Notes under the pieces: model-generated | What the model saw: the letters and a program-made list of their open reading frames with translations, nothing else | Told to the model about the DNA's origin: nothing | Databases searched by the model: none | Shown: in pieces, positions 7,423-55,717 of the stretch | Numbering within the stretch: position 1 is the first letter of the stretch | Layout: every line of letters begins with the position of its first letter | Source: Bacillota bacterium | GTDB lineage: Bacteria; Bacillota; Clostridia; Lachnospirales; Lachnospiraceae | NCBI GenBank assembly: GCA_029224465.1 | Contig: JAQXUQ010000016.1 | Location: 1 to 64,000, forward strand | Length of the DNA stretch: 64,000 nt | Direction: 5' to 3' | Translations under genes and position numbers: made by a program

Positions 7423-7498
7423 ATTGTCCCTGACAGCGGCATGGGAAAGCCGCACGGTACTGCTGCAATGCAGCGGGAGAATCCGTACAGCCCGGAAA

Positions 7499-7543
7499 GC
7501 CGGAGCGGACCTGTCACATCGTGGCAGGTCCGCTCCGGCTTTT
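7499..7543 (+). terminator. Intrinsic terminator
   Basis: GCCGGAGCGGACCTG ... CAGGTCCGCTCCGGC then TTTT. Confidence 0.9.
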
Positions 7544-43590: not shown

Positions 43591-45174
43591 TTATTGTCCG
43601 GAAGCTCCGTAGTTGGCAAGAACGCGGGCGGAAGGATCGTTGACATCGCAGCCCTTCCAGCTCTTGTTCGGCATCCAGAATGCCGGGATCATCTGACCCT
43701 GCCCCGGATAATATTTTTCGAAAATCTCGCGGTAGAGCAGCGATTCTTTTGTAAACGGCATCGCGTGCGGATACAGCTTGCGGCGCTTCTCATATTCCTC
43801 ATCTGTATACAGAGACTCCGCGTATTCGATCAGATCATTGCGCAGAGAGTGGCCGACTGCATCGGAAAAGGCGGCCTTCTCACGCATCAGAATATTTCTC
43901 GGAATCAGCTCGTCTGCCTCAAACGCATGCCGGAGAAGGTATTTACCGATGCCGTAGGTGTTCATCTTCTTTTCCGGATTAATGTGCATGACATAATCGA
44001 CAAAATCCAGATCGCCGAACGGTACGCGCGCCTCGAGCGAATTTACGGAAATGCAGCGGTCTGCCCGCAGCACATCGTATACATTGATTTCACGGATACG
44101 TTTTTCGGCTTCCTTCTGAAAAGCGTCGGGGGAAGGAGCAAAATCCGTATATTTATAACCGAAGAGCTCGTCGGAAATCTCGCCGGTCAGGATGACACGG
44201 ATGTTCGTGTTTTCATGAATCCACTTGCAGACAAGATACATGCCGATCGAAGCGCGGACCGTCGTGATATCAAAGGTGCCGAGAGCCGCTATGACAGGCT
44301 CGAGCGCGTTTATGACATCGTCTCTCGTGATGATGACTTCATGGTGGTTGGAACCGATATAGGCAGCGACTTCACGCGCGTATTTCAGATCGATGGCGTC
44401 AATGTCCATACCGATCGAGAAGGTTTCGAGCGGCTTCTTCATGAGCTTCGCGGCAGCCCCGCACACAAGCGAGGAATCCAGACCGCCGGAAAGCAGATAA
44501 CCGATCGGCGCGTCCGCGTCCAGACGCTTCTGAATGCCGCACAGAAGCTTGTCGTGAATGTTTTTGCAGATTTCCGGAAGATCGTCGTCCAGATACCGGT
44601 CAACCTTCGAAGGATCTTTGTAAGTATGGAACTCGCCGTCCGCGTAATAGCATCCGGGAGGGAACGGGAAAATCTTCGCGCAGGTACCGACCAGGTTCTT
44701 CGGCTCGGAGGCGAAGACGATGGTTCCTTCCGCGTCATATCCGTAATATAAAGGCCGAATGCCGATCGGGTCTCTCGCGGCAATATATTCTCCGGTGCTG
44801 CCGTCGTAGATGATCAGCGCGAACTCCGCATCCAGCACACGGAACATGGAAACACCAAGTTCCTCATAAAGAGGAAGCAGAATTTCACAGTCGGATTCGG
44901 AACGGAAAGTATAACCCTTGCCGCAGAGGTATTCACGGATCGGGCGGAAGCCGTAGATTTCACCGTTGCATACGCAGTAATTTCCATTATATTCGAAGGG
45001 CTGCATGCCCGCCTCGGTCAGGCCCATGATCGAGAGGCGGTTGAATCCCAGATACCCGTCCCCGGTCTTCATGATCCGGGACATATCCGGTCCTCTGGAA
45101 ATTGTCTTGGCGAGCATCGCCTGCATCGCTTCATATGATGCAGGCTTGCCGCAGTAGCCTAGAATGCTGCACAT
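43591..45174 (-). CDS. asnB: Asparagine synthase (glutamine-hydrolysing) family
   Basis: MCSILGYCG N-terminal Cys nucleophile; YLLSGGLDSSLVCG PP-loop. Confidence 0.95.
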   Translation of the reverse strand: MCSILGYCGKPASYEAMQAMLAKTISRGPDMSRIMKTGDGYLGFNRLSIMGLTEAGMQPFEYNGNYCVCNGEIYGFRPIREYLCGKGYTFRSESDCEILLPLYEELGVSMFRVLDAEFALIIYDGSTGEYIAARDPIGIRPLYYGYDAEGTIVFASEPKNLVGTCAKIFPFPPGCYYADGEFHTYKDPSKVDRYLDDDLPEICKNIHDKLLCGIQKRLDADAPIGYLLSGGLDSSLVCGAAAKLMKKPLETFSIGMDIDAIDLKYAREVAAYIGSNHHEVIITRDDVINALEPVIAALGTFDITTVRASIGMYLVCKWIHENTNIRVILTGEISDELFGYKYTDFAPSPDAFQKEAEKRIREINVYDVLRADRCISVNSLEARVPFGDLDFVDYVMHINPEKKMNTYGIGKYLLRHAFEADELIPRNILMREKAAFSDAVGHSLRNDLIEYAESLYTDEEYEKRRKLYPHAMPFTKESLLYREIFEKYYPGQGQMIPAFWMPNKSWKGCDVNDPSARVLANYGASGQ

Positions 45175-45240: not shown

Positions 45241-45339
45241 GTACATACAAACGCGGCAGAGAGCCGCATCCACCAACGGAGGGCACATAAATGCTGCCCG
45301 CAGGGTGGAAAGCGACGTCTCTGCCGCGTTTGTATGTAC
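45241..45339. other. Structured inverted-repeat element in the asnB/glnA divergent intergenic region
   Basis: Perfect 22-bp arms GTACATACAAACGCGGCAGAGA / TCTCTGCCGCGTTTGTATGTAC; internal CCACC/GGTGG and GGGCA/TGCCC. Confidence 0.85.
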
Positions 45340-45412
45340 TTGCTTTATGGAAGGCATTATGACGCTCTCCCGGCGACTTGTCAAGCCTATTGCATTATTG
45401 TATACAAAAGTC

Positions 45413-45441
45413 TTGACAGGCAGGAAGCCATGTGATAAAAC
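45413..45441 (+). promoter_or_regulatory. Candidate glnA promoter
   Basis: TTGACA-N17-TAAAAC (alternative GATAAA); transcript would start just before the attenuator. Confidence 0.45.
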
Positions 45442-45450
45442 CAGTTGCAT

Positions 45451-45515
45451 GAAGCAAAGGCGCTTCGGGAGACAGCCCGCACGGGCGGTCTCCCGAGGCG
45501 CTTTTTCGTTTTTTT
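45451..45515 (+). terminator. Leader terminator with overlapping alternative hairpin, directly before the glnA RBS
   Basis: Terminator 45456-45505 then T-runs to 45515; alternative GAAGC-AAAGGC-GCTTC hairpin 45451-45466; SD AGGAGG 45518. Confidence 0.8.
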
Positions 45516-45528
45516 GCAGGAGGAGCTT

Positions 45529-47634
45529 ATGGAAAATATCAATTCTGTACCGGAAATGTACGGAAGTCTTGTTTTCAATGACAAGGTCATGAAGGAACGG
45601 CTTCCCAAGGACATTTATAAGGCAGTTCACGCATGTGCTACGAATGGCACGCACCTGCAGCTGGACGTCGCCAATACGGTTGCCGCAGTAATGAAGAACT
45701 GGGCACTCGAGCATGGCGCCACACACTTTACGCACTGGTTCCAGCCGATGACAGGTCTTACCGCCGAGAAGCATGACAGCTTCATCAATCCGCAGGCAGA
45801 CGGTTCCGTGATCATGGATTTCTCTGGCAAGGAACTGGTAAAAGGCGAACCGGACGCTTCCTCGTTCCCCAGCGGCGGCCTTCGCGCGACCTTTGAAGCA
45901 AGAGGTTATACCGCGTGGGATCCTTCTTCTCCGGCATTCATTAAAGACGGCACCCTGTATATCCCGACCGCTTTCGCTTCTTACGGCGGCGAAGCGCTCG
46001 ACAAGAAGACTCCGCTTCTGCGTTCGATGGAAGCCCTCTCGAAGGAAGCCGTGAAGGTTCTGCACCTTCTCGGCAATACGGAAGTCACGCATGTTGATAC
46101 AACCGTCGGCTCCGAGCAGGAATATTTCCTGATTGACAAGGAGATGTATCTCAAGCGAAAAGATCTTCTCATGACCGGCCGCACACTCATCGGCGCTCCC
46201 GCTCCGAAGGGACAGGAGATGGAGGATCATTACTTCGGCGTCCTCAAGCCGAAGGTTTCCGAGTTCATGCACGATCTGGATCAGGAGCTCTGGAAGCTGG
46301 GTGTTCCCGCCAAAACAAAACACAACGAAGTCGCTCCCTCCCAGCACGAGCTGGCTCCGGTTTTCGAAACCGCGAACATCGCCGTTGATCACAACCAGCT
46401 GACCATGGAGATGATGAAGAAGGTCGCCGACAAACACGGTTATGCCTGCCTTCTGCATGAGAAGCCGTTCGAAGGCGTCAACGGCTCCGGAAAGCACAAC
46501 AACTGGTCGATCATTACCAATACCGGTGTGAACCTCCTGGATCCCGGCAAAACACCGGACCAGAACATCCAGTTTCTGGTCTTCCTGATGGCGACGATCG
46601 CCGCTGTAGACGAATACGCGGATCTGCTTCGTGTATCGGTCGCTACGGCCGGCAATGACCACCGTCTTGGCGCGAACGAGGCACCGCCGGCTGTCATCTC
46701 GATCTTTGTCGGCGATGAGCTCGCGAAGGTATTGAAGTCGATTGACGAAGGCACAGCTTTTGTATCCGAAGGAAAGACTTCGATGGGTCTTGCGGAAGTT
46801 CTGCCGCATATCACAAAAGATACGACAGACCGCAACAGAACATCGCCGTTTGCTTTCACAGGCAATAAATTCGAGTTCCGTATGCCGGGATCCTCGCTTT
46901 CCGTGGCTGACCCCAACATGGTACTGAACACGGCGGTTGCAGAGTATCTTTCGCGAATTTATGACGCGCTCAAGGATGTGCCGGAAGAGAGCCGCGACGC
47001 GGAAGTCAAGAAGCTTTTAAAGAAGCTGCTCGACGAGCACAAGAAGATTCTGTTCAACGGCAACGGTTATACGGACGAATGGATTGACGAAGCGCAGAAG
47101 CGGGGACTCTACAATCTCAAATCTCTTCCGGATGCAATGCCGCACCTGATCGGCGACAAGAGCGTCGATCTGTTCACAAAACACGGCGTATTCACGAAAG
47201 AAGAGCTGCGTTCGCGCTATGAGATCTTCCTTGAAAACTATGTGAAGACGATTCATATCGAATCTCTCACGATGCAGGAAATGGTCCGCAAGGACTTCAC
47301 ATCCGGCCTCGTATCCTATATGAAGGATGTCACAAACGAAGCGCTGAAGAAGAAGCAGCTGATGCCGGAGCTCAAGGTCAGCTACGAGACGGATATCATC
47401 GGAACGCTCGACGAGGCGGAAGGTGAAATCGATCAGGCGCTCGAAAAGCTGTCGGAGGATACACACAAGGCGGAAGCGGAAACCGATGCCTTGAAGACAG
47501 CAAGATATTATCACGACACAATCCTTACGGATATGGATACGCTCCGCGCGTCTGTAGATGCCGCGGAAGCGATTATCCCCGAGCAGTATCTGCCGTATCC
47601 GACGTACGGAGAACTGCTGTTTTCCCTCAGATGA
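45529..47634 (+). CDS. glnA: Glutamine synthetase type III
   Basis: KHNEVAPSQHELAPVFE; EKPFEGVNGSGKHNNWS; about 701 aa GSIII size. Confidence 0.95.
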   Translation: MENINSVPEMYGSLVFNDKVMKERLPKDIYKAVHACATNGTHLQLDVANTVAAVMKNWALEHGATHFTHWFQPMTGLTAEKHDSFINPQADGSVIMDFSGKELVKGEPDASSFPSGGLRATFEARGYTAWDPSSPAFIKDGTLYIPTAFASYGGEALDKKTPLLRSMEALSKEAVKVLHLLGNTEVTHVDTTVGSEQEYFLIDKEMYLKRKDLLMTGRTLIGAPAPKGQEMEDHYFGVLKPKVSEFMHDLDQELWKLGVPAKTKHNEVAPSQHELAPVFETANIAVDHNQLTMEMMKKVADKHGYACLLHEKPFEGVNGSGKHNNWSIITNTGVNLLDPGKTPDQNIQFLVFLMATIAAVDEYADLLRVSVATAGNDHRLGANEAPPAVISIFVGDELAKVLKSIDEGTAFVSEGKTSMGLAEVLPHITKDTTDRNRTSPFAFTGNKFEFRMPGSSLSVADPNMVLNTAVAEYLSRIYDALKDVPEESRDAEVKKLLKKLLDEHKKILFNGNGYTDEWIDEAQKRGLYNLKSLPDAMPHLIGDKSVDLFTKHGVFTKEELRSRYEIFLENYVKTIHIESLTMQEMVRKDFTSGLVSYMKDVTNEALKKKQLMPELKVSYETDIIGTLDEAEGEIDQALEKLSEDTHKAEAETDALKTARYYHDTILTDMDTLRASVDAAEAIIPEQYLPYPTYGELLFSLR

Positions 47635-47690
47635 CGGCCTGGCCGCAACCCTCGCGGCTTTGACGTAGTTCCTTAACTGTATACACCGAT

Positions 47691-47718
47691 GGCCCCGGGC
47701 ACTCACCTGTCCGGGGCC
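47691..47718 (+). promoter_or_regulatory. GC-rich hairpin in the glnA-gltB intergenic region
   Basis: GGCCCCGG...CCGGGGCC, no U-tract follows. Confidence 0.5.
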
Positions 47719-47742
47719 GGCTGGTATTCAATGGAGAATAGA

Positions 47743-50700
47743 ATGAACGATACAAAAAGATCCGAATGGACCAGTGAAGATTACGAGGCTCTTCTCACAG
47801 AGCACGATGCCTGCGGGATCGGAACCGTCGTAAATATTGACGGGCATCCGGATCACCGGGTGCTGGACGACGCTCTGACAATCGTGGAGAAGCTCGAGCA
47901 CCGCGCGGGCAAGGACGCTACCGGAAAGGTCGGCGACGGCGTCGGTATTCTCGCGCAGATTTCTCATAAGTTTTTCAAAACAGCCGCCGCAGCCGCAGGC
48001 ATCACCCTGGGCGGCGAGCGCGATTACGGCATCGGCATGCTGTTTCTTCCGCAGGACCAGATGAAGCGCATGTTCGCGATGCGCATGCTCGAAGTCATCA
48101 CGCAGAAGGAAGGACTCGAACTGCTTGGCTGGCGCAGCGTACCGGTACACCCGGAAATTCTGGGCGGACCCGCGCGCGCGTGCATGCCGTGCATCATGCA
48201 GTGCTTTATCAAACGCCCGGAGGAGACACCCCGCGGCGTCGAATTTGACAGAAGACTTTATGTTGTCCGCCGCGAGTTTGAACAGAGCTCCGAGGACACC
48301 TATATCTGCTCTCTTTCCTCGAGAACGATCGTCTATAAAGGCATGTTCCTCGTAAAACAGCTCCGCCGCTTCTATGAAGACCTGCAGAGCAAAGATTACG
48401 AGACCGCGATTGCAATTGTCCACTCGAGATTTTCAACGAATACCACGCCGTCGTGGAACCGCGCGCATCCTTACCGCATGATCGCGCACAACGGCGAGAT
48501 CAATACCATCCGCGGCAATGTGGACCGCATGCTCGCCCGTGAGGAGACCATGCACAGCCCGAACATGGAAAAGGATATCGACAGGATTTTCCCTGTCGTC
48601 AACAAATCCGGCTCCGATTCCGCGATTCTCGACAATACACTCGAATTCCTGTATATGAACGGCATGGATCTGCCTCTGGCAGTCATGGTTACAATTCCCG
48701 AGCCGTGGAAGCATAATCAGTTCATGTCCGAAGAGCGCAGGGATTTCTATCATTATTACGCAACCATGATGGAGCCGTGGGACGGCCCTGCGGCAATCCT
48801 GTTCAGCGACGGCGACCTTGTCGGCGCGACTCTCGACAGGAACGGACTGCGCCCTTCCAGATATTATGTGACCGATGACGGACGCCTGATTCTTTCTTCC
48901 GAAGTCGGTGTACTGGATATCCCTCCGGAACATATCGTGAAAAAGTCAAGACTCGAGCCCGGCCGCATTCTTTTAGTTGACACGAAGCAGAAGCGTATCA
49001 TCTCGGACGAGGAGTGCAAAACATATTACGCAAGACGCCAGCCGTACGGCGAATGGCTGGACCGGAACCTGCTGCATCTGTCGCAGCTTCCGATCCCGAA
49101 CCGGAGAGTCGAGACGCACGAGCAGGAGCTGCGGGACAAGCTTTACAAGGTCTTCGGTTATACCTATGAAGACGTAAAGGACGAAATTCTTCCGATGGCG
49201 AAGAACGCCGTGGAGCCTACCCTTTCGATGGGGCATGATGTGCCGCTTGCTGTTTTGTCAAGGCAGCACCAGCTGCTGTTCAATTATTTCAAGCAGCTGT
49301 TCGCGCAGGTCACAAACCCGCCGATTGACTCACTCCGGGAGAAGGTAGTTACCGACACAACGGTATATATCGGTTCCGACGGCGATCTGCTGCAGGAAAA
49401 GAGCGGCAACTGCACCGTGCTCGAAGTTAATGATCCGATCCTGACCGAGGTCGATCTGATGAAGATCAAGGCGCTTGATCAGCCGGGCTTTCATGTGGAG
49501 ACGGTATCGCTGCTGTTTTACAAGAACACATCGCTGGAACGGGCGCTGGAACAGCTCAATATCACGGTTGACCGCGCGGCTTCCAACGGGAAAAACATCA
49601 TCATCCTTTCCGACCGCGGCGTGGACGAGAACCATGTGCCGATTCCGTCACTGCTGGCCGTTTCGTCCGTCGAGCAGCATCTGGTCAATACCAGAAAGAG
49701 AACAGCGGTATCGCTGATTCTCGAATCCGCGGAGCCGAGGGATGTACATCAGGTAGCGGCGCTGCTTGGCTTCGGCGCGCGGGCAATCAACCCGTACCTT
49801 GCGCACGAGTGCATCGCCGAACTGATCGACAGAAGAATCCTCGACAAGGATTATCACACGGCGATTGAAGATTACAACAAAGCGCTGCTGTCCGGCGTCG
49901 TGAAAATCGCGGCGAAGATGGGCATCAGCACGATCCAATCCTATCAGTCGGCACGCATCTTTGAGGCAATCGGCCTCTCGAAGGATGTCATAGACAAATA
50001 CTTTACGGGCACGGTCAGCCGTGTCGGCGGCATCGGCATCCGTGAGATTGAGGAAGGCATCACATTCCGCCATGATCATGCGTTTGATCCTCTGGGACTC
50101 GGCGTCGACACAGCGCTTGACTCGGTCGGCTTCCATAAGCTCAGAAGCGGACGGGACAAGGAAGACCACATGTACAATCCGGAGACGATCATCGCACTGC
50201 AGCGGGCGGTCCGCGCCGGAGACTATGCAATGTTCCGCAAGTACACGGAGATGGTTGACGATGAAAAGCGTCCGCACACGCTGCGCGGCCTGACAGAGTT
50301 CGTGCCGCAGCAGCCTCCGGTTGCGATCGAAGAGGTCGAGCCGGTTGAGAGCATTGTTAAGCGGTTCAAAACAGGCGCCATGTCCTACGGCTCCATTTCG
50401 CAGGAAGCACATGAGACAATGGCCGAGGCCATGAACAGCATCGGCGGCAAGTCCAACACCGGTGAAGGCGGTGAAGACGTTTCCCGCTACGGGACGAAAT
50501 ACAACAGCGCAATCAAACAGGTCGCTTCCGGGCGTTTCGGCGTTACGAGCGCGTACCTGAACAGCGCGGTTGAAATACAGATCAAGATGGCACAGGGCGC
50601 GAAGCCCGGCGAAGGCGGACATCTTCCCGGGAAGAAAGTATATCCGTGGGTTGCAAAGGTCAGATACTCAACGCCCGGCGTATCTTTGATTTCGCCGCCG

Positions 50701-52293
50701 CCGCACCATGACATCTATTCGATCGAGGATCTGGCGCAGCTGATCTACGATCTGAAAAACGCGAACCGTTATGCAAGAATCTCGGTCAAACTTGTTTCAG
50801 AAGCAGGCGTCGGAACAATCGCTTCCGGCGTTGCCAAAGCCGGTGCGCAGGTTATTCTGATTTCCGGCTATGACGGAGGAACCGGCGCGGCGCCGGGCAG
50901 CTCGATTCATAACGCTGGTCTTCCGTGGGAGCTGGGCGTTGCCGAAGCGCAGCAGAGTCTTGTCAGCAGCGGACTGCGTGACAGAGTGTGCATCGAGACA
51001 GACGGCAAGCTCATGAGCGGCCGGGATGTCGCGATCGCGGCGCTTCTGGGAGCCGAAGAGTTCGGTTTCGCGACGGCACCGCTTGTGTGCATGGGCTGCA
51101 TGATGATGCGTGTCTGCTCGAAGGACACCTGCCCTGTCGGCATTGCGACGCAGAACGAGGTTTTACGAAAGCGTTTTGCCGGCAAGCCGGAGTACGTTGT
51201 GAACTTTATGAAGTTCATCGCGCAGCAGCTGCGGGAGATCATGGCGTCTCTCGGCTTCCGCACCGTTTCCGAAATGGTCGGACGCACCGACTGCCTGCGG
51301 ACAAGGGAGCATCAGATTACACAAAGAGCCGCGGAAGTCGATCTTTCCGGCATTCTGGATCAGACCTACGCGCATGCGGAAGGCACGCACTTTGACCCGG
51401 CACACGTTTACAATTTCCATCTGGAAAAGACGCTCGATGCATCCGCGCTTCTGCCGGCCTTTGAAAAGGCACTGCATATGAAGGCGGAAGAGGTGAAGCC
51501 GCAGCAGTTTTCGCTGAAGGTTTCCTCAACGGACAGAGCATTCGGCTCGATTCTGGGCTCCGATATAACGAGAAACTTCGGAAGCGCCCTGCCGGATGAC
51601 ACATTCACGGTCTTCGCGGAAGGCGGCGGCGGACAGTCGTTCGGCGCGTTTATTCCGAATGGCCTTACGATCCGTCTTTCGGGAGACGCGAACGACGGCT
51701 TCGGCAAGGGACTTTCCGGCGGCAAGCTGGTTGTGGTTCCGCCGGAGAAATCCAGGTTTAAAGCGAGCGAAAACATCATCATCGGCAACGTGGCACTGTA
51801 CGGCGCAACGTCCGGAAAGGCGTATGTCTGCGGCATCGCGGGCGAGCGTTTCTGCGTCCGTAATTCAGGCGCGACGGCAGTCGCGGAAGGCTGCGGTGAT
51901 CACGGCCTGGAATACATGACAGGCGGCCGCGCGGTGATTCTCGGACCTACCGGCAAGAACTTCGCGGCAGGTATGTCCGGCGGTTTTGCTTATGTACTGG
52001 ACAGCGATCACACGCTGTACCGCAGAATGAACAAGGATATGGATACTCTGCAGGAGCTGACAGACAAGTATGACATCCAGGAGCTCAAGGATATCCTGAC
52101 AGATTATGAAAAGGAAACCGGGTCGGAGCTGGCCGCGCGGATTCTGTCCGATTTCGACCGGTATCTGCCAGATTTCAAGAAGATTGTTCCGAACGATTAC
52201 CAGCGGATGCTGACAGCCATCAGCAAGTACGAGGAGCAGGGAATATCGCACGAAAACGCGATGCTCGAAGCATTCGAGGAGGTGACAGCGTAA
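47743..52293 (+). CDS. gltB: Glutamate synthase large subunit
   Basis: HDACGIGTV N-terminal Cys; FMN-synthase motifs GGKSNTGEGGED, SAYLNSAVEIQIKMAQGAKPGEGG; CSKDTCPVGIATQ. Confidence 0.96.
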   Translation: MNDTKRSEWTSEDYEALLTEHDACGIGTVVNIDGHPDHRVLDDALTIVEKLEHRAGKDATGKVGDGVGILAQISHKFFKTAAAAAGITLGGERDYGIGMLFLPQDQMKRMFAMRMLEVITQKEGLELLGWRSVPVHPEILGGPARACMPCIMQCFIKRPEETPRGVEFDRRLYVVRREFEQSSEDTYICSLSSRTIVYKGMFLVKQLRRFYEDLQSKDYETAIAIVHSRFSTNTTPSWNRAHPYRMIAHNGEINTIRGNVDRMLAREETMHSPNMEKDIDRIFPVVNKSGSDSAILDNTLEFLYMNGMDLPLAVMVTIPEPWKHNQFMSEERRDFYHYYATMMEPWDGPAAILFSDGDLVGATLDRNGLRPSRYYVTDDGRLILSSEVGVLDIPPEHIVKKSRLEPGRILLVDTKQKRIISDEECKTYYARRQPYGEWLDRNLLHLSQLPIPNRRVETHEQELRDKLYKVFGYTYEDVKDEILPMAKNAVEPTLSMGHDVPLAVLSRQHQLLFNYFKQLFAQVTNPPIDSLREKVVTDTTVYIGSDGDLLQEKSGNCTVLEVNDPILTEVDLMKIKALDQPGFHVETVSLLFYKNTSLERALEQLNITVDRAASNGKNIIILSDRGVDENHVPIPSLLAVSSVEQHLVNTRKRTAVSLILESAEPRDVHQVAALLGFGARAINPYLAHECIAELIDRRILDKDYHTAIEDYNKALLSGVVKIAAKMGISTIQSYQSARIFEAIGLSKDVIDKYFTGTVSRVGGIGIREIEEGITFRHDHAFDPLGLGVDTALDSVGFHKLRSGRDKEDHMYNPETIIALQRAVRAGDYAMFRKYTEMVDDEKRPHTLRGLTEFVPQQPPVAIEEVEPVESIVKRFKTGAMSYGSISQEAHETMAEAMNSIGGKSNTGEGGEDVSRYGTKYNSAIKQVASGRFGVTSAYLNSAVEIQIKMAQGAKPGEGGHLPGKKVYPWVAKVRYSTPGVSLISPPPHHDIYSIEDLAQLIYDLKNANRYARISVKLVSEAGVGTIASGVAKAGAQVILISGYDGGTGAAPGSSIHNAGLPWELGVAEAQQSLVSSGLRDRVCIETDGKLMSGRDVAIAALLGAEEFGFATAPLVCMGCMMMRVCSKDTCPVGIATQNEVLRKRFAGKPEYVVNFMKFIAQQLREIMASLGFRTVSEMVGRTDCLRTREHQITQRAAEVDLSGILDQTYAHAEGTHFDPAHVYNFHLEKTLDASALLPAFEKALHMKAEEVKPQQFSLKVSSTDRAFGSILGSDITRNFGSALPDDTFTVFAEGGGGQSFGAFIPNGLTIRLSGDANDGFGKGLSGGKLVVVPPEKSRFKASENIIIGNVALYGATSGKAYVCGIAGERFCVRNSGATAVAEGCGDHGLEYMTGGRAVILGPTGKNFAAGMSGGFAYVLDSDHTLYRRMNKDMDTLQELTDKYDIQELKDILTDYEKETGSELAARILSDFDRYLPDFKKIVPNDYQRMLTAISKYEEQGISHENAMLEAFEEVTA

Positions 52294-53798
52294 TGGGGAA
52301 GCCAACCGGATTTCTGGAATTCCAAAGAATCGAAAACAAAGGCGTCCCTGTACGCGAACGGGTATTGAATTTCAAAGAATTTCATACACCGCTCTCCAGG
52401 GATGAAAGAAGAGAGCAGGCAGCCCGCTGCATGGACTGCGGCGTACCGCTTTGCCAGTCCGCTATGAAATTGAACGGCATGGTGACGGGATGTCCTCTGC
52501 ACAATCTGATCCCGGAGTGGAATGATCAGATCTACAATGACAATCTGGAGCATGCCTTCTCCAGACTCGCCAAAACAAACAATTTCCCGGAATTCACCGG
52601 CCGTGTCTGCCCGGCGCTTTGTGAAAAAGCCTGCATCAACGGCGAATACGGTGAACCGGTCACCATCCGCGACAACGAGCTTTTTACGGTTGAGACAGCA
52701 TATGAAGACGGCAGCATAAAGCCGAGAATTCCGAAGGTCAGAAGCGGAAGAAAGGTGGCCGTGATCGGCAGCGGCCCTTCGGGGCTCGCCGCGGCGGATG
52801 AACTCAATCACAGAGGGCATCTTGTCACGGTATTCGAGCGGGATGAGCGGATCGGCGGGCTATTAATGTACGGCATTCCGAACATGAAGCTTGAAAAGGA
52901 TGTGATCGCAAGAAGGCAGAAGCTGATGGAGGCGGAGGGCGTTGTTTTCCGGACCGGCGTGAACGTCGGAACGGACGTCTCCGCAGCAGAGCTCTTAAAA
53001 GAGTACGACGCGGTTGTTCTGTGCTGCGGCGCGAAGAAGGCAAGACCGCTCCCCGGAGCCGATCCAGAGAAAATCAAAGGCATTTACTATGCTGTTGATT
53101 TTCTTTCGTCGACGACAAAGAGTCTTCTTTCCTCCGGCGGAAGAACCGTGCAGGAGCTTGAAAAAGCCGGCGGCTATATCAGCGCGCACGGAAAAAACGT
53201 CGTTGTAGTCGGAGGCGGCGACACCGGCAATGACTGCATTGCGACCGTGATCCGTCACGGCTGCAAGTCGGTGACAGCACTTGAGATGATGCCGGAACCG
53301 CCCGCGGAGAGAACCGCTTCCAACCCGTGGCCGGAATGGCCGAGGGTCCGCAAAGTGGACTATGGTCATGAAGAAGCGCAGACGCTCTTCGGGCATGATC
53401 CGCGTGTGTATGAGACAACGGTCAAGGAGTATCATACGGACAAAAAAGGGTGCCTGAAGGAAATTGTCACTGTCAAGGTTTGTTTTGACAAGGACCGGAA
53501 GATGAGCGAGGTGCCGGGCAGCGCGAAAACCATTCCGTGCGAGCTTCTCCTCATCGCTGCAGGCTTCCTTGGCTGTGAAGAGAAGACGCCCGAAGCGTTC
53601 GGCGTCAAAATTTCCGGCAGAAACACTGTCCTTACAAAAGACCCCGAAGAGTATCAGACGAATGTTCCCAAGGTATTTACAGCAGGAGACATGCACCGGG
53701 GACAGTCGCTGGTCGTCTGGGCGATCACCGAAGGACGCAAGGCCGCGAGAGCGGTTGATGAATTTCTTATGGGATATACGAATCTGCGCGAAGTATGA
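52293..53798 (+). CDS. gltD: Glutamate synthase small subunit
   Basis: ARCMDCGVPLCQ...GCPLHNLIPEWN Fe-S motif; VAVIGSGPSGLAAADEL; translationally coupled to gltB. Confidence 0.96.
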   Translation: MGKPTGFLEFQRIENKGVPVRERVLNFKEFHTPLSRDERREQAARCMDCGVPLCQSAMKLNGMVTGCPLHNLIPEWNDQIYNDNLEHAFSRLAKTNNFPEFTGRVCPALCEKACINGEYGEPVTIRDNELFTVETAYEDGSIKPRIPKVRSGRKVAVIGSGPSGLAAADELNHRGHLVTVFERDERIGGLLMYGIPNMKLEKDVIARRQKLMEAEGVVFRTGVNVGTDVSAAELLKEYDAVVLCCGAKKARPLPGADPEKIKGIYYAVDFLSSTTKSLLSSGGRTVQELEKAGGYISAHGKNVVVVGGGDTGNDCIATVIRHGCKSVTALEMMPEPPAERTASNPWPEWPRVRKVDYGHEEAQTLFGHDPRVYETTVKEYHTDKKGCLKEIVTVKVCFDKDRKMSEVPGSAKTIPCELLLIAAGFLGCEEKTPEAFGVKISGRNTVLTKDPEEYQTNVPKVFTAGDMHRGQSLVVWAITEGRKAARAVDEFLMGYTNLREV

Positions 53799-53832: not shown

Positions 53833-53888
53833 CGGCAGCAAAGGGGCTGCCGCACAGGCAAAATGCCTGCGCGGCGGCTCCTTTTATG
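53833..53888 (+). terminator. Leader terminator with overlapping alternative hairpin upstream of amt
   Basis: Alternative CGGCAGC-AAAGGG-GCTGCCG 53833-53852; terminator stem 53840-53884 ending CCTTTT. Confidence 0.75.
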
Positions 53889-53947
53889 ATAACTGCAGCC
53901 GCTCACCGGCAGCAGCCGAGGGGCAGAACCAAAAGGAGGAGTGAGTT

Positions 53948-55717
53948 ATGGAAATCAGTGTATCTACTGTCATATGGGTGCTGGTAGCGACAGCGCTCGT
54001 CTATTTCATGCAGGCAGGCTTCGCTCTATGCGAATCCGGTCTGACCAGAGCCAAGAACACCGGCAATATCCTCATGAAAAACATGATGGACTTCTGCATC
54101 GGCACGCCGTGCTTCTGGTTTATCGGCTTCGGCCTGATGTTCGGCGGTACCGGCCCGCTGATCGGCCGCTTTGATCCTTTTATCCGGGGCGACTATGCGG
54201 GAACGGTGGTTCCGCAGACAATGCCTCTATGGTGTTTTGTCATTTTCGAAACGGTTTTCTGCGCGACGGCAGCGACGATCGTTTCGGGATCCATGGCAGA
54301 ACGTACAAACTTCAAAGCCTACTGCGTCTATTCCGCGGTGATTTCTCTGATCATATACCCGATTGAAGGACACTGGGTATGGGGCGGCGGCTGGCTTGCG
54401 GCGCTTGGTATGCATGATTTCGCTGGCTCCGCGGTTGTTCACAATGTCGGCGGTGTGATCGCCTGCCTCGGCGCGTGGATGCTTGGCCCCAGAATCGGCA
54501 AGTACGACAAGGACGGCAAGGCAAGAGCGATTCCCGGCCATAACCTGACCGCGATGGCACTCGGCGTATTCGTTCTGTGGTTCTGCTGGTTTGGTTTCAA
54601 CGGCGGCTCGACGATCGCGATGGACACGGCGGACAATGCGGTTACCGCTTCCAATGCTTTCATGACAACAAACCTCGCGGCGGCTGTCGCAACCGTTGTT
54701 GCTATGATCTTTACCTGGTTCAAGTACGGCAAGCCGGACGTATCGATGACCTTCAACGCGTCTCTCGCGGGCCTTGTAGCGATTACGGCAGGATGCGACT
54801 GCGTATCTCCGGCCGGCGCATTCTTCATCGGTATGGTTTCCGGTTTCATTGTCGTTCTTTCGGTTGAGTTCTTTGATAACGTCGCGAAGATCGATGATCC
54901 GGTCGGCGCGGTTTCGGTTCACATGGTCAACGGCATCTGGGGAACACTGGCGGTCGGCCTGTTTTCCACCGGCGCGGACGGCGTAGGAAAGGGACTCTTC
55001 TACGGCGGCGGCTTCCGGCAGCTCGGCATTCAGATACTCGGCATTATCGCAATTGACGCGTATGTTCTGGTTACGATGTTTATTGCTTTCAAGATCATTG
55101 ACAAGTTCATCGGACTTCGTGTTCCGGCACAGGTTGAAATTGATGGTCTGGATATTCATGAGCACGGTCTTGCAAGCGCGTACTCCGGCTTCGCGATTAC
55201 CGATGTAACACAGATGGAAGTCGACGCGAACGAAAACACGGATCTTGGCGAGAGCGATTATGACAAGGCGGAAGATTTCCGCAAGGATGCCGCGGTCAAG
55301 GTTTACCGCGCGCCGGAAACTTCTACGGATCAGGCGCCTGTACCTGTCGGCAGTTACGATACAGGCATGCACAAGGTTTCCATCGTATGCAGACTTTCCA
55401 GATTTGATGAACTCAAGAAAGCGCTCAACGAGCTCGGCGTCACCGGCATGACAATGTATCAGGTTATGGGCTGCGGCATTCAGAAAGGTTCCACCGAGCG
55501 TTACAGAGGCGCTGTCGTTGACTCTACATTGATACCGAAGGTAAAGGTGGAAGTCATTGTGTCGAGAATTCCTGTGGACAAGGTGATCGAGGCAGCCAAG
55601 AGAGCACTCTATACGGGACATATCGGAGACGGCAAGATCTTCGTTTACAATGTCACGAAGGTTGTCAAGGTCAGAACAGGAGAGGAAGATTTTGACGCTC
55701 TGCAGGACGTGGAGTAA
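53948..55717 (+). CDS. Ammonium transporter fused to a C-terminal P-II (GlnB/GlnK) domain
   Basis: Amt motifs (MQAGFALCESGLTRAKN; NVGGVIACLGAW; HMVNGIWGTLAVGLF); C-terminus from 55367 MHKVSIVCRLSRFDELKKALNELGVTGMTMYQVMGCGIQKGSTERYRGA... Confidence 0.93.
   Translation: MEISVSTVIWVLVATALVYFMQAGFALCESGLTRAKNTGNILMKNMMDFCIGTPCFWFIGFGLMFGGTGPLIGRFDPFIRGDYAGTVVPQTMPLWCFVIFETVFCATAATIVSGSMAERTNFKAYCVYSAVISLIIYPIEGHWVWGGGWLAALGMHDFAGSAVVHNVGGVIACLGAWMLGPRIGKYDKDGKARAIPGHNLTAMALGVFVLWFCWFGFNGGSTIAMDTADNAVTASNAFMTTNLAAAVATVVAMIFTWFKYGKPDVSMTFNASLAGLVAITAGCDCVSPAGAFFIGMVSGFIVVLSVEFFDNVAKIDDPVGAVSVHMVNGIWGTLAVGLFSTGADGVGKGLFYGGGFRQLGIQILGIIAIDAYVLVTMFIAFKIIDKFIGLRVPAQVEIDGLDIHEHGLASAYSGFAITDVTQMEVDANENTDLGESDYDKAEDFRKDAAVKVYRAPETSTDQAPVPVGSYDTGMHKVSIVCRLSRFDELKKALNELGVTGMTMYQVMGCGIQKGSTERYRGAVVDSTLIPKVKVEVIVSRIPVDKVIEAAKRALYTGHIGDGKIFVYNVTKVVKVRTGEEDFDALQDVE

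Follow-up and report, generated by a model that had tools for sequence, protein, structure and literature searches.

What does a 99-bp element with long inverted arms do between two divergently transcribed genes of glutamine metabolism? It was picked out by a sequence-only reading of the 64,000-nt stretch of DNA analysed here (the window), which offered a cis-acting asnB leader RNA, a small RNA gene or a MITE-like insertion as explanations. We now consider it likely that the asnB mRNA begins with this element, as a leader that attenuates transcription in the manner of ANTAR antitermination targets. The features of the locus are collected in Table 1.

The 22-bp arms are, as that reading had it, exact reverse complements (45241-45262 and 45318-45339). 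They form the longest perfect inverted repeat in the window at spacers of up to 100 bp, with about 4e-7 such repeats expected by chance and a runner-up of 18 bp; a second perfect inverted repeat, with 18-bp arms around an 11-nt spacer, lies at window positions 7496-7542. Folding puts the element far beyond its shuffles on both strands, the minus strand being the best (-71.2 kcal/mol, z -13.5, 0/200 shuffles; plus strand -64, z -12.1). One of the two nested interior pairs proposed earlier, CCACC/GGTGG, does form on the minus strand, while GGGCA/TGCCC gives way there to GCGGG/UCCGU and GCAU/GUGC. The flanking genes do both handle glutamine -- asnB on the minus strand, a type III glutamine synthetase (GSIII) on the plus strand -- and the earlier impression that this is no known riboswitch or T-box agrees with Rfam, which at gathering threshold detects no riboswitch, T-box or other family in the window and at relaxed thresholds gives nothing relevant, only weak matches at the locus.

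Table 1. Features of the asnB-GSIII locus, in window positions
Feature	Position	Strand	Evidence
asnB promoter TTGACA-17-CATAAT	45356..45384	-	11/12 consensus matches
asnB-leader antiterminator hairpin GCGGC[AGAGAC]GUCGC (hexaloop, A1 and G4, C-G closing pair)	45312..45327	-	identical in L033, L036, L037
Terminator-like stem, 5' arm, overlapping the antiterminator hairpin	45318..45339	-	reverse complement and folding
Terminator-like stem, 3' arm	45241..45262	-	reverse complement and folding
Decayed U-tract UUUGUAUGU	45243..45251	-	sequence comparison
asnB, glutamine-hydrolysing asparagine synthase B	43591..45174	-	NF006949, 594.7 bits
Palindrome TTGTATACAA, common to the divergent promoters, candidate operator	45398..45407	.	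palindrome survey near leaders
GSIII glnA leader promoter TTGACA-17-TAAAAC	45413..45441	+	sequence; R1 29.6 bits
GSIII-leader antiterminator hairpin GAAGC[AAAGGC]GCUUC	45451..45466	+	folding
GSIII hexaloop and textbook terminator unit	45450..45515	+	R2 47.9 bits, E 2e-9 in genome
Type III glutamine synthetase (GSIII)	45529..47634	+	PF12437
Glutamate synthase, large- and small-subunit genes, following GSIII	47689..53798	+	named from translations
Tentative amtB leader CAGC[AAAGGG]GCUG	53834..53890	+	R2 15.5 bits, E 0.1
Ammonium transporter with fused C-terminal P-II (GlnK-like) domain	53948..55717	+	TIGR00836, NF008111

The asnB leader

A TTGACA-17-CATAAT promoter lies directly upstream on the minus strand, ending at 45356, so that the asnB transcript begins with the element, which lies 66 nt ahead of the asnB ATG. 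This promoter, together with the homologous asnB leaders of relatives, bears out the proposal of a cis-acting leader RNA. The small RNA gene was dropped, since a consensus scan found no plus-strand promoter at the element and since relatives have the leader arrangement. The sequence-only reading had argued against a terminator from the absence of a plus-strand U-tract, but the relevant strand is the minus strand; there, the G+C-rich portion of the stem leads into a degenerate U-tract, GUUUGUAUGU. That reading is supported in part; it missed that the 5' arm contains a hexaloop antiterminator, that the divergent glnA has a matching leader and that an ANTAR gene lies 27 kb away.

The 5' arm can refold on the minus strand (45327-45312) into the hexaloop hairpin of Table 1, which has a stem of 5 bp and is the sole fold of the nascent leader (-7.3 kcal/mol); in the full leader the long stem folds (-72.7). 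The same 16-nt hairpin is found in the asnB leaders of L033, L036 and L037, whose asnB proteins show 98%, 82% and 82% identity, while the remaining hairpin sequence differs. L036 and L037 have proper terminators with six-U tracts, GUUUUUUG and CUUUUUUG, and the sister L033 has GUUUUAUUUG; the changed U-tract of the window copy has made its right flank fully complementary to the left one, in which window copy and sister agree. In this lineage a 10-bp terminator stem has thereby been lengthened across what was the U-tract, giving the perfect 22-bp arms. Judging from the two sequences, the change looks like correction of an imperfect palindrome during replication, and termination may be weaker in the window copy.

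This copy is the least typical member of the leader family described below, in its AGAGAC loop, its spacing and its U-tract; of two covariance models, R1 gives it 7.8 bits and R2, a model of the hairpin plus terminator, does not list it, and its hairpin alone arises in 1.2% of leader shuffles. It might conceivably be a relic, ANTAR control having been lost in this lineage and the hairpin now being a 5' structure that stabilises the mRNA or is cut by RNase III. The U-tract has indeed decayed and been replaced by a perfect complement of the 5' flank, and neither model calls the leader; yet the hexaloop hairpin is unchanged with respect to the three relatives, the promoter has been kept, and the A/U flank pairing also occurs in L036 and L037, where the U-tracts are retained. 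We think a relic rather unlikely.

Related leaders in Clostridia

Known ANTAR targets have a hexaloop with A1 and G4 that overlaps a terminator; EutV depends on A1, G4 and a conserved closing pair, and NasR too depends on A1 and G4 (PMC3369931). The loops AGAGAC of the asnB leader and AAAGGC of the GSIII leader both have this signature. Terminator overlap is seen in the GSIII leader and the family, and in the window asnB leader the stem overlaps, but the U-tract is degenerate.

In many asnB upstream regions of relatives, a promoter is followed closely by a terminator with a hexaloop hairpin in its left arm, and in about 80 related leaders the transcript opens with the hexaloop hairpin, which overlaps the terminator. 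An unbiased scan of 882 kb around asnB, taking any hexaloop hairpin that overlaps a U-tract terminator and leaving the loop unconstrained, gave 441 hairpins; A1 with G4 occurred in 114 of them and the other 15 combinations in 13-41 each. An upstream promoter matching at least 9/12 positions accompanies 59 of the 114 A1G4 hairpins, against 29 of the 327 others. In 43 of 55 cases 11-18 nt separate the -10 from the start of the loop, and leaders from other genera repeat this spacing.

An alignment of 55 leaders shows covariation in both stems. The hexaloop stem is 87% paired with 67 double-changed cells against 22 in shuffles, where a stem of at least 3 bp was a criterion of selection, so that the inner three pairs are biased and the outer ones are not; the closing pair is C-G in 55/55, partly through selection. 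The terminator stem is 89% paired, with 101 double-changed cells against 31 in shuffles. These folds are mutually exclusive, and both covary despite the bases that they have in common. In the genome itself, the promoter-hexaloop-T-run pattern is not enriched (11 matches, 10 for a reversed-pattern control), and only matches with both hairpin and promoter were therefore used; the own-genome matches of R1 were mostly promoters, for which reason R2 was used instead.

Many leaders also have a TGTATACA palindrome, often TTGTATACAA, just before the -35, on the -10 or immediately past it, and of the 25 TGTATACA sites in the 882 kb, 10 have a leader loop no more than 150 nt downstream. Palindromes of this type are present in the window (45398-45407), in own-genome leaders at L127, L114, L137, L139 and L140, and in loci L046, L048, L049, L063, L069, L070 and L091; they are candidate operators for a DNA-binding regulator, which would add a second layer of control. 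Paired hexaloop-terminator units stand close together in L082, L083, L092, L103, L046 and L073, in several cases apparently in tandem before one gene.

Genes behind the leaders and the ANTAR protein

By R2 and inspection, the leaders of this genome precede GSIII-glutamate synthase, a GlnQ-type ABC ATPase, acetolactate synthase, putrescine aminotransferase, a cytosine deaminase-like enzyme, a GltP-like symporter, pyrG-glnA-ANTAR and, tentatively, amtB-PII. In relatives, related leaders precede GSIII, asnB, amtB, pyrG, AsnA, carB and murT-like genes: the genes after 83 leaders include 31 GSIII, about 20 asnB (a count inflated by the picking of loci by asnB), 7 ammonium transporters, 5 CTP synthases, 3 AsnA, 3 Mur-ligase-like genes, 2 carbamoyl-phosphate synthases, glutamate dehydrogenase and others. 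The Mur-ligase-like genes (leaders at L048:2513, L070:2847 and L091:2963) may be murT, one half of the MurT-GatD pair that uses glutamine, which would tie cell-wall amidation to the same control as the glutamine genes.

A single ANTAR domain was found in the genome (61.3 bits), on the window's contig and 27 kb from the GSIII leader. It belongs to a 195-aa protein with matches in the PDB to Rv1626, EutV, AmiR and NasR, and its gene directly follows that of a second, type I-like glutamine synthetase, with pyrG ahead of both (L114:8891-10827). The hexaloop leader upstream of pyrG-glnA-ANTAR makes autoregulation likely. Aligned with EutV (chain numbering two ahead of the paper's), the protein keeps Lys149, Glu160 and Met172, has His for Tyr164 as in AmiR, and does not keep Arg142. 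Its receiver has Asn in place of the phospho-acceptor Asp and so departs from the phosphorylated response regulators of EutV type; in relatives with this region aligned the position is mostly N, H or other, with Asp in two.

A related ANTAR gene falls inside the fetched stretch at 13 of the 80 asnB loci. In a sample of 243 Clostridia genomes, with a leader defined as an R2 match at E 1e-4, ANTAR is present in 69 of 75 leader-bearing and 65 of 168 other genomes (odds ratio 18, p=4e-16, kinship ignored), and 21 genomes have a leader and the ANTAR gene no more than 10 kb apart. Six genomes have leaders and no detected ANTAR gene, and 65 have ANTAR and no leader at that E value. The six, and the receiver without its Asp, would suit leaders read by a non-ANTAR RNA-binding protein or by a small molecule, but the leaders carry exactly the ANTAR determinants, A1, G4 and the C-G closing pair (PMC3369931), leaders and ANTAR genes are linked as well as co-occurring, and no Rfam family is matched; we regard such a reader as improbable.

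The best reading of the regulon is NitR-like ANTAR antitermination with single 5'-terminal hexaloops, in which the one ANTAR protein of the genome probably operates the switch, through its predicted binding to the hairpin. RNA polymerase would start about 10 nt upstream of the stem, and the hexaloop hairpin would, from folding, be the first structure able to form. Held by the NitR-like protein, with its pseudo-receiver and ANTAR domain, the hairpin would keep the left arm unavailable and transcription would run on into asnB; left unbound, it would give way to pairing of the arms into the long terminator-like hairpin, where transcription would tend to stop, although the U-tract, strong in relatives, is weak in this copy. 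In this genome leaders of the same design would also control the operon of the divergent GSIII and glutamate synthase genes, the pyrG-glnA-ANTAR operon and some six other nitrogen genes, and in other Clostridia many glutamine genes. By analogy with what is reported for NitR of C. saccharobutylicum (PMC6316151), the genes are probably switched on under nitrogen or glutamine scarcity.

Single hexaloops and the known ANTAR systems

As defined by Ramesh 2012, an ANTAR target has a stem of at least 3 bp, a conserved closing pair and two tandem hexaloops with a short linker, and deletion of P1, the first hexaloop, abolishes eutP induction in E. faecalis (PMC3369931). A 2022 EutV-RNA structure has one hexaloop as the minimal binding unit, with contact to both loops needed for antitermination, and its authors asked how widely single-hexaloop sites are used (PMC8934654); the literature searched, mostly outside the subscription journals, yielded no later paper on single-hexaloop antitermination.

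Could the present leaders be ordinary dual-hexaloop sites whose cryptic first hairpin escaped the scan? Some 20-30 nt do lie ahead of the hexaloop in the window asnB and C9 leaders, but no second, tandem hexaloop hairpin was found in the former, and of 48 promoter-bearing leaders, 0 have a first A1G4 hexaloop in the stretch from the -10 to the hairpin; most have no room for one, with only 5-10 nt there. When the promoter is ignored a first hexaloop appears in 2 of the 48 (0.6 expected), both times inside promoter sequence. We hold a hidden first hairpin to be quite unlikely. A MITE-like or other mobile inverted repeat, to which the long perfect arms and distinct interior might point, can be practically dismissed: the element has one copy in the 2.55-Mb genome, DNA comparison yields a single relative (89%) among 62 genomes of the genus and, in 299 family genomes, nothing beyond a weak 33-nt partial match, so that by DNA similarity it reaches no further than its closest relative, and homologous leaders stand at the same position before asnB.

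On balance we favour, with some reserve, a glutamine regulon of Clostridia (GSIII, glutamate synthase, asnB, AsnA, amt, pyrG, carB, murT-like genes and others) under ANTAR antitermination at a single 5'-end hexaloop, in which case the requirement for two hexaloops would not be general. Here the hairpin would be the first RNA to leave the polymerase, and a first loop for recruitment may perhaps not be needed. The leaders are dozens of candidate natural single-hexaloop ANTAR sites, with a built-in test of mechanism; if the reading is true, it names a global glutamine control for rumen and gut Clostridia, and it suggests that dual-hairpin search models would overlook such sites.

The class of mechanism is known and the architecture is new. 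The eutP, nasF and amiE leaders likewise have an A1/G4 hexaloop on a short stem with a C-G closing pair, overlap an intrinsic terminator and serve nitrogen genes in genomes with an ANTAR protein, but they have two tandem hexaloops with a fixed linker where the present leaders have one, at the 5' terminus. AmiR resembles the ANTAR protein found here in carrying its ANTAR domain behind a receiver-like domain and in the His at the EutV Tyr164 position, and differs in serving one operon through a dual-hairpin leader. NitR of C. saccharobutylicum, also an ANTAR protein, reportedly induces GS/GOGAT genes via antitermination on nitrogen limitation (PMC6316151, citing Stutz 2007); relative to the genes cited there, the regulon proposed here additionally takes in asnB, pyrG, transporters and other glutamine-using enzymes.
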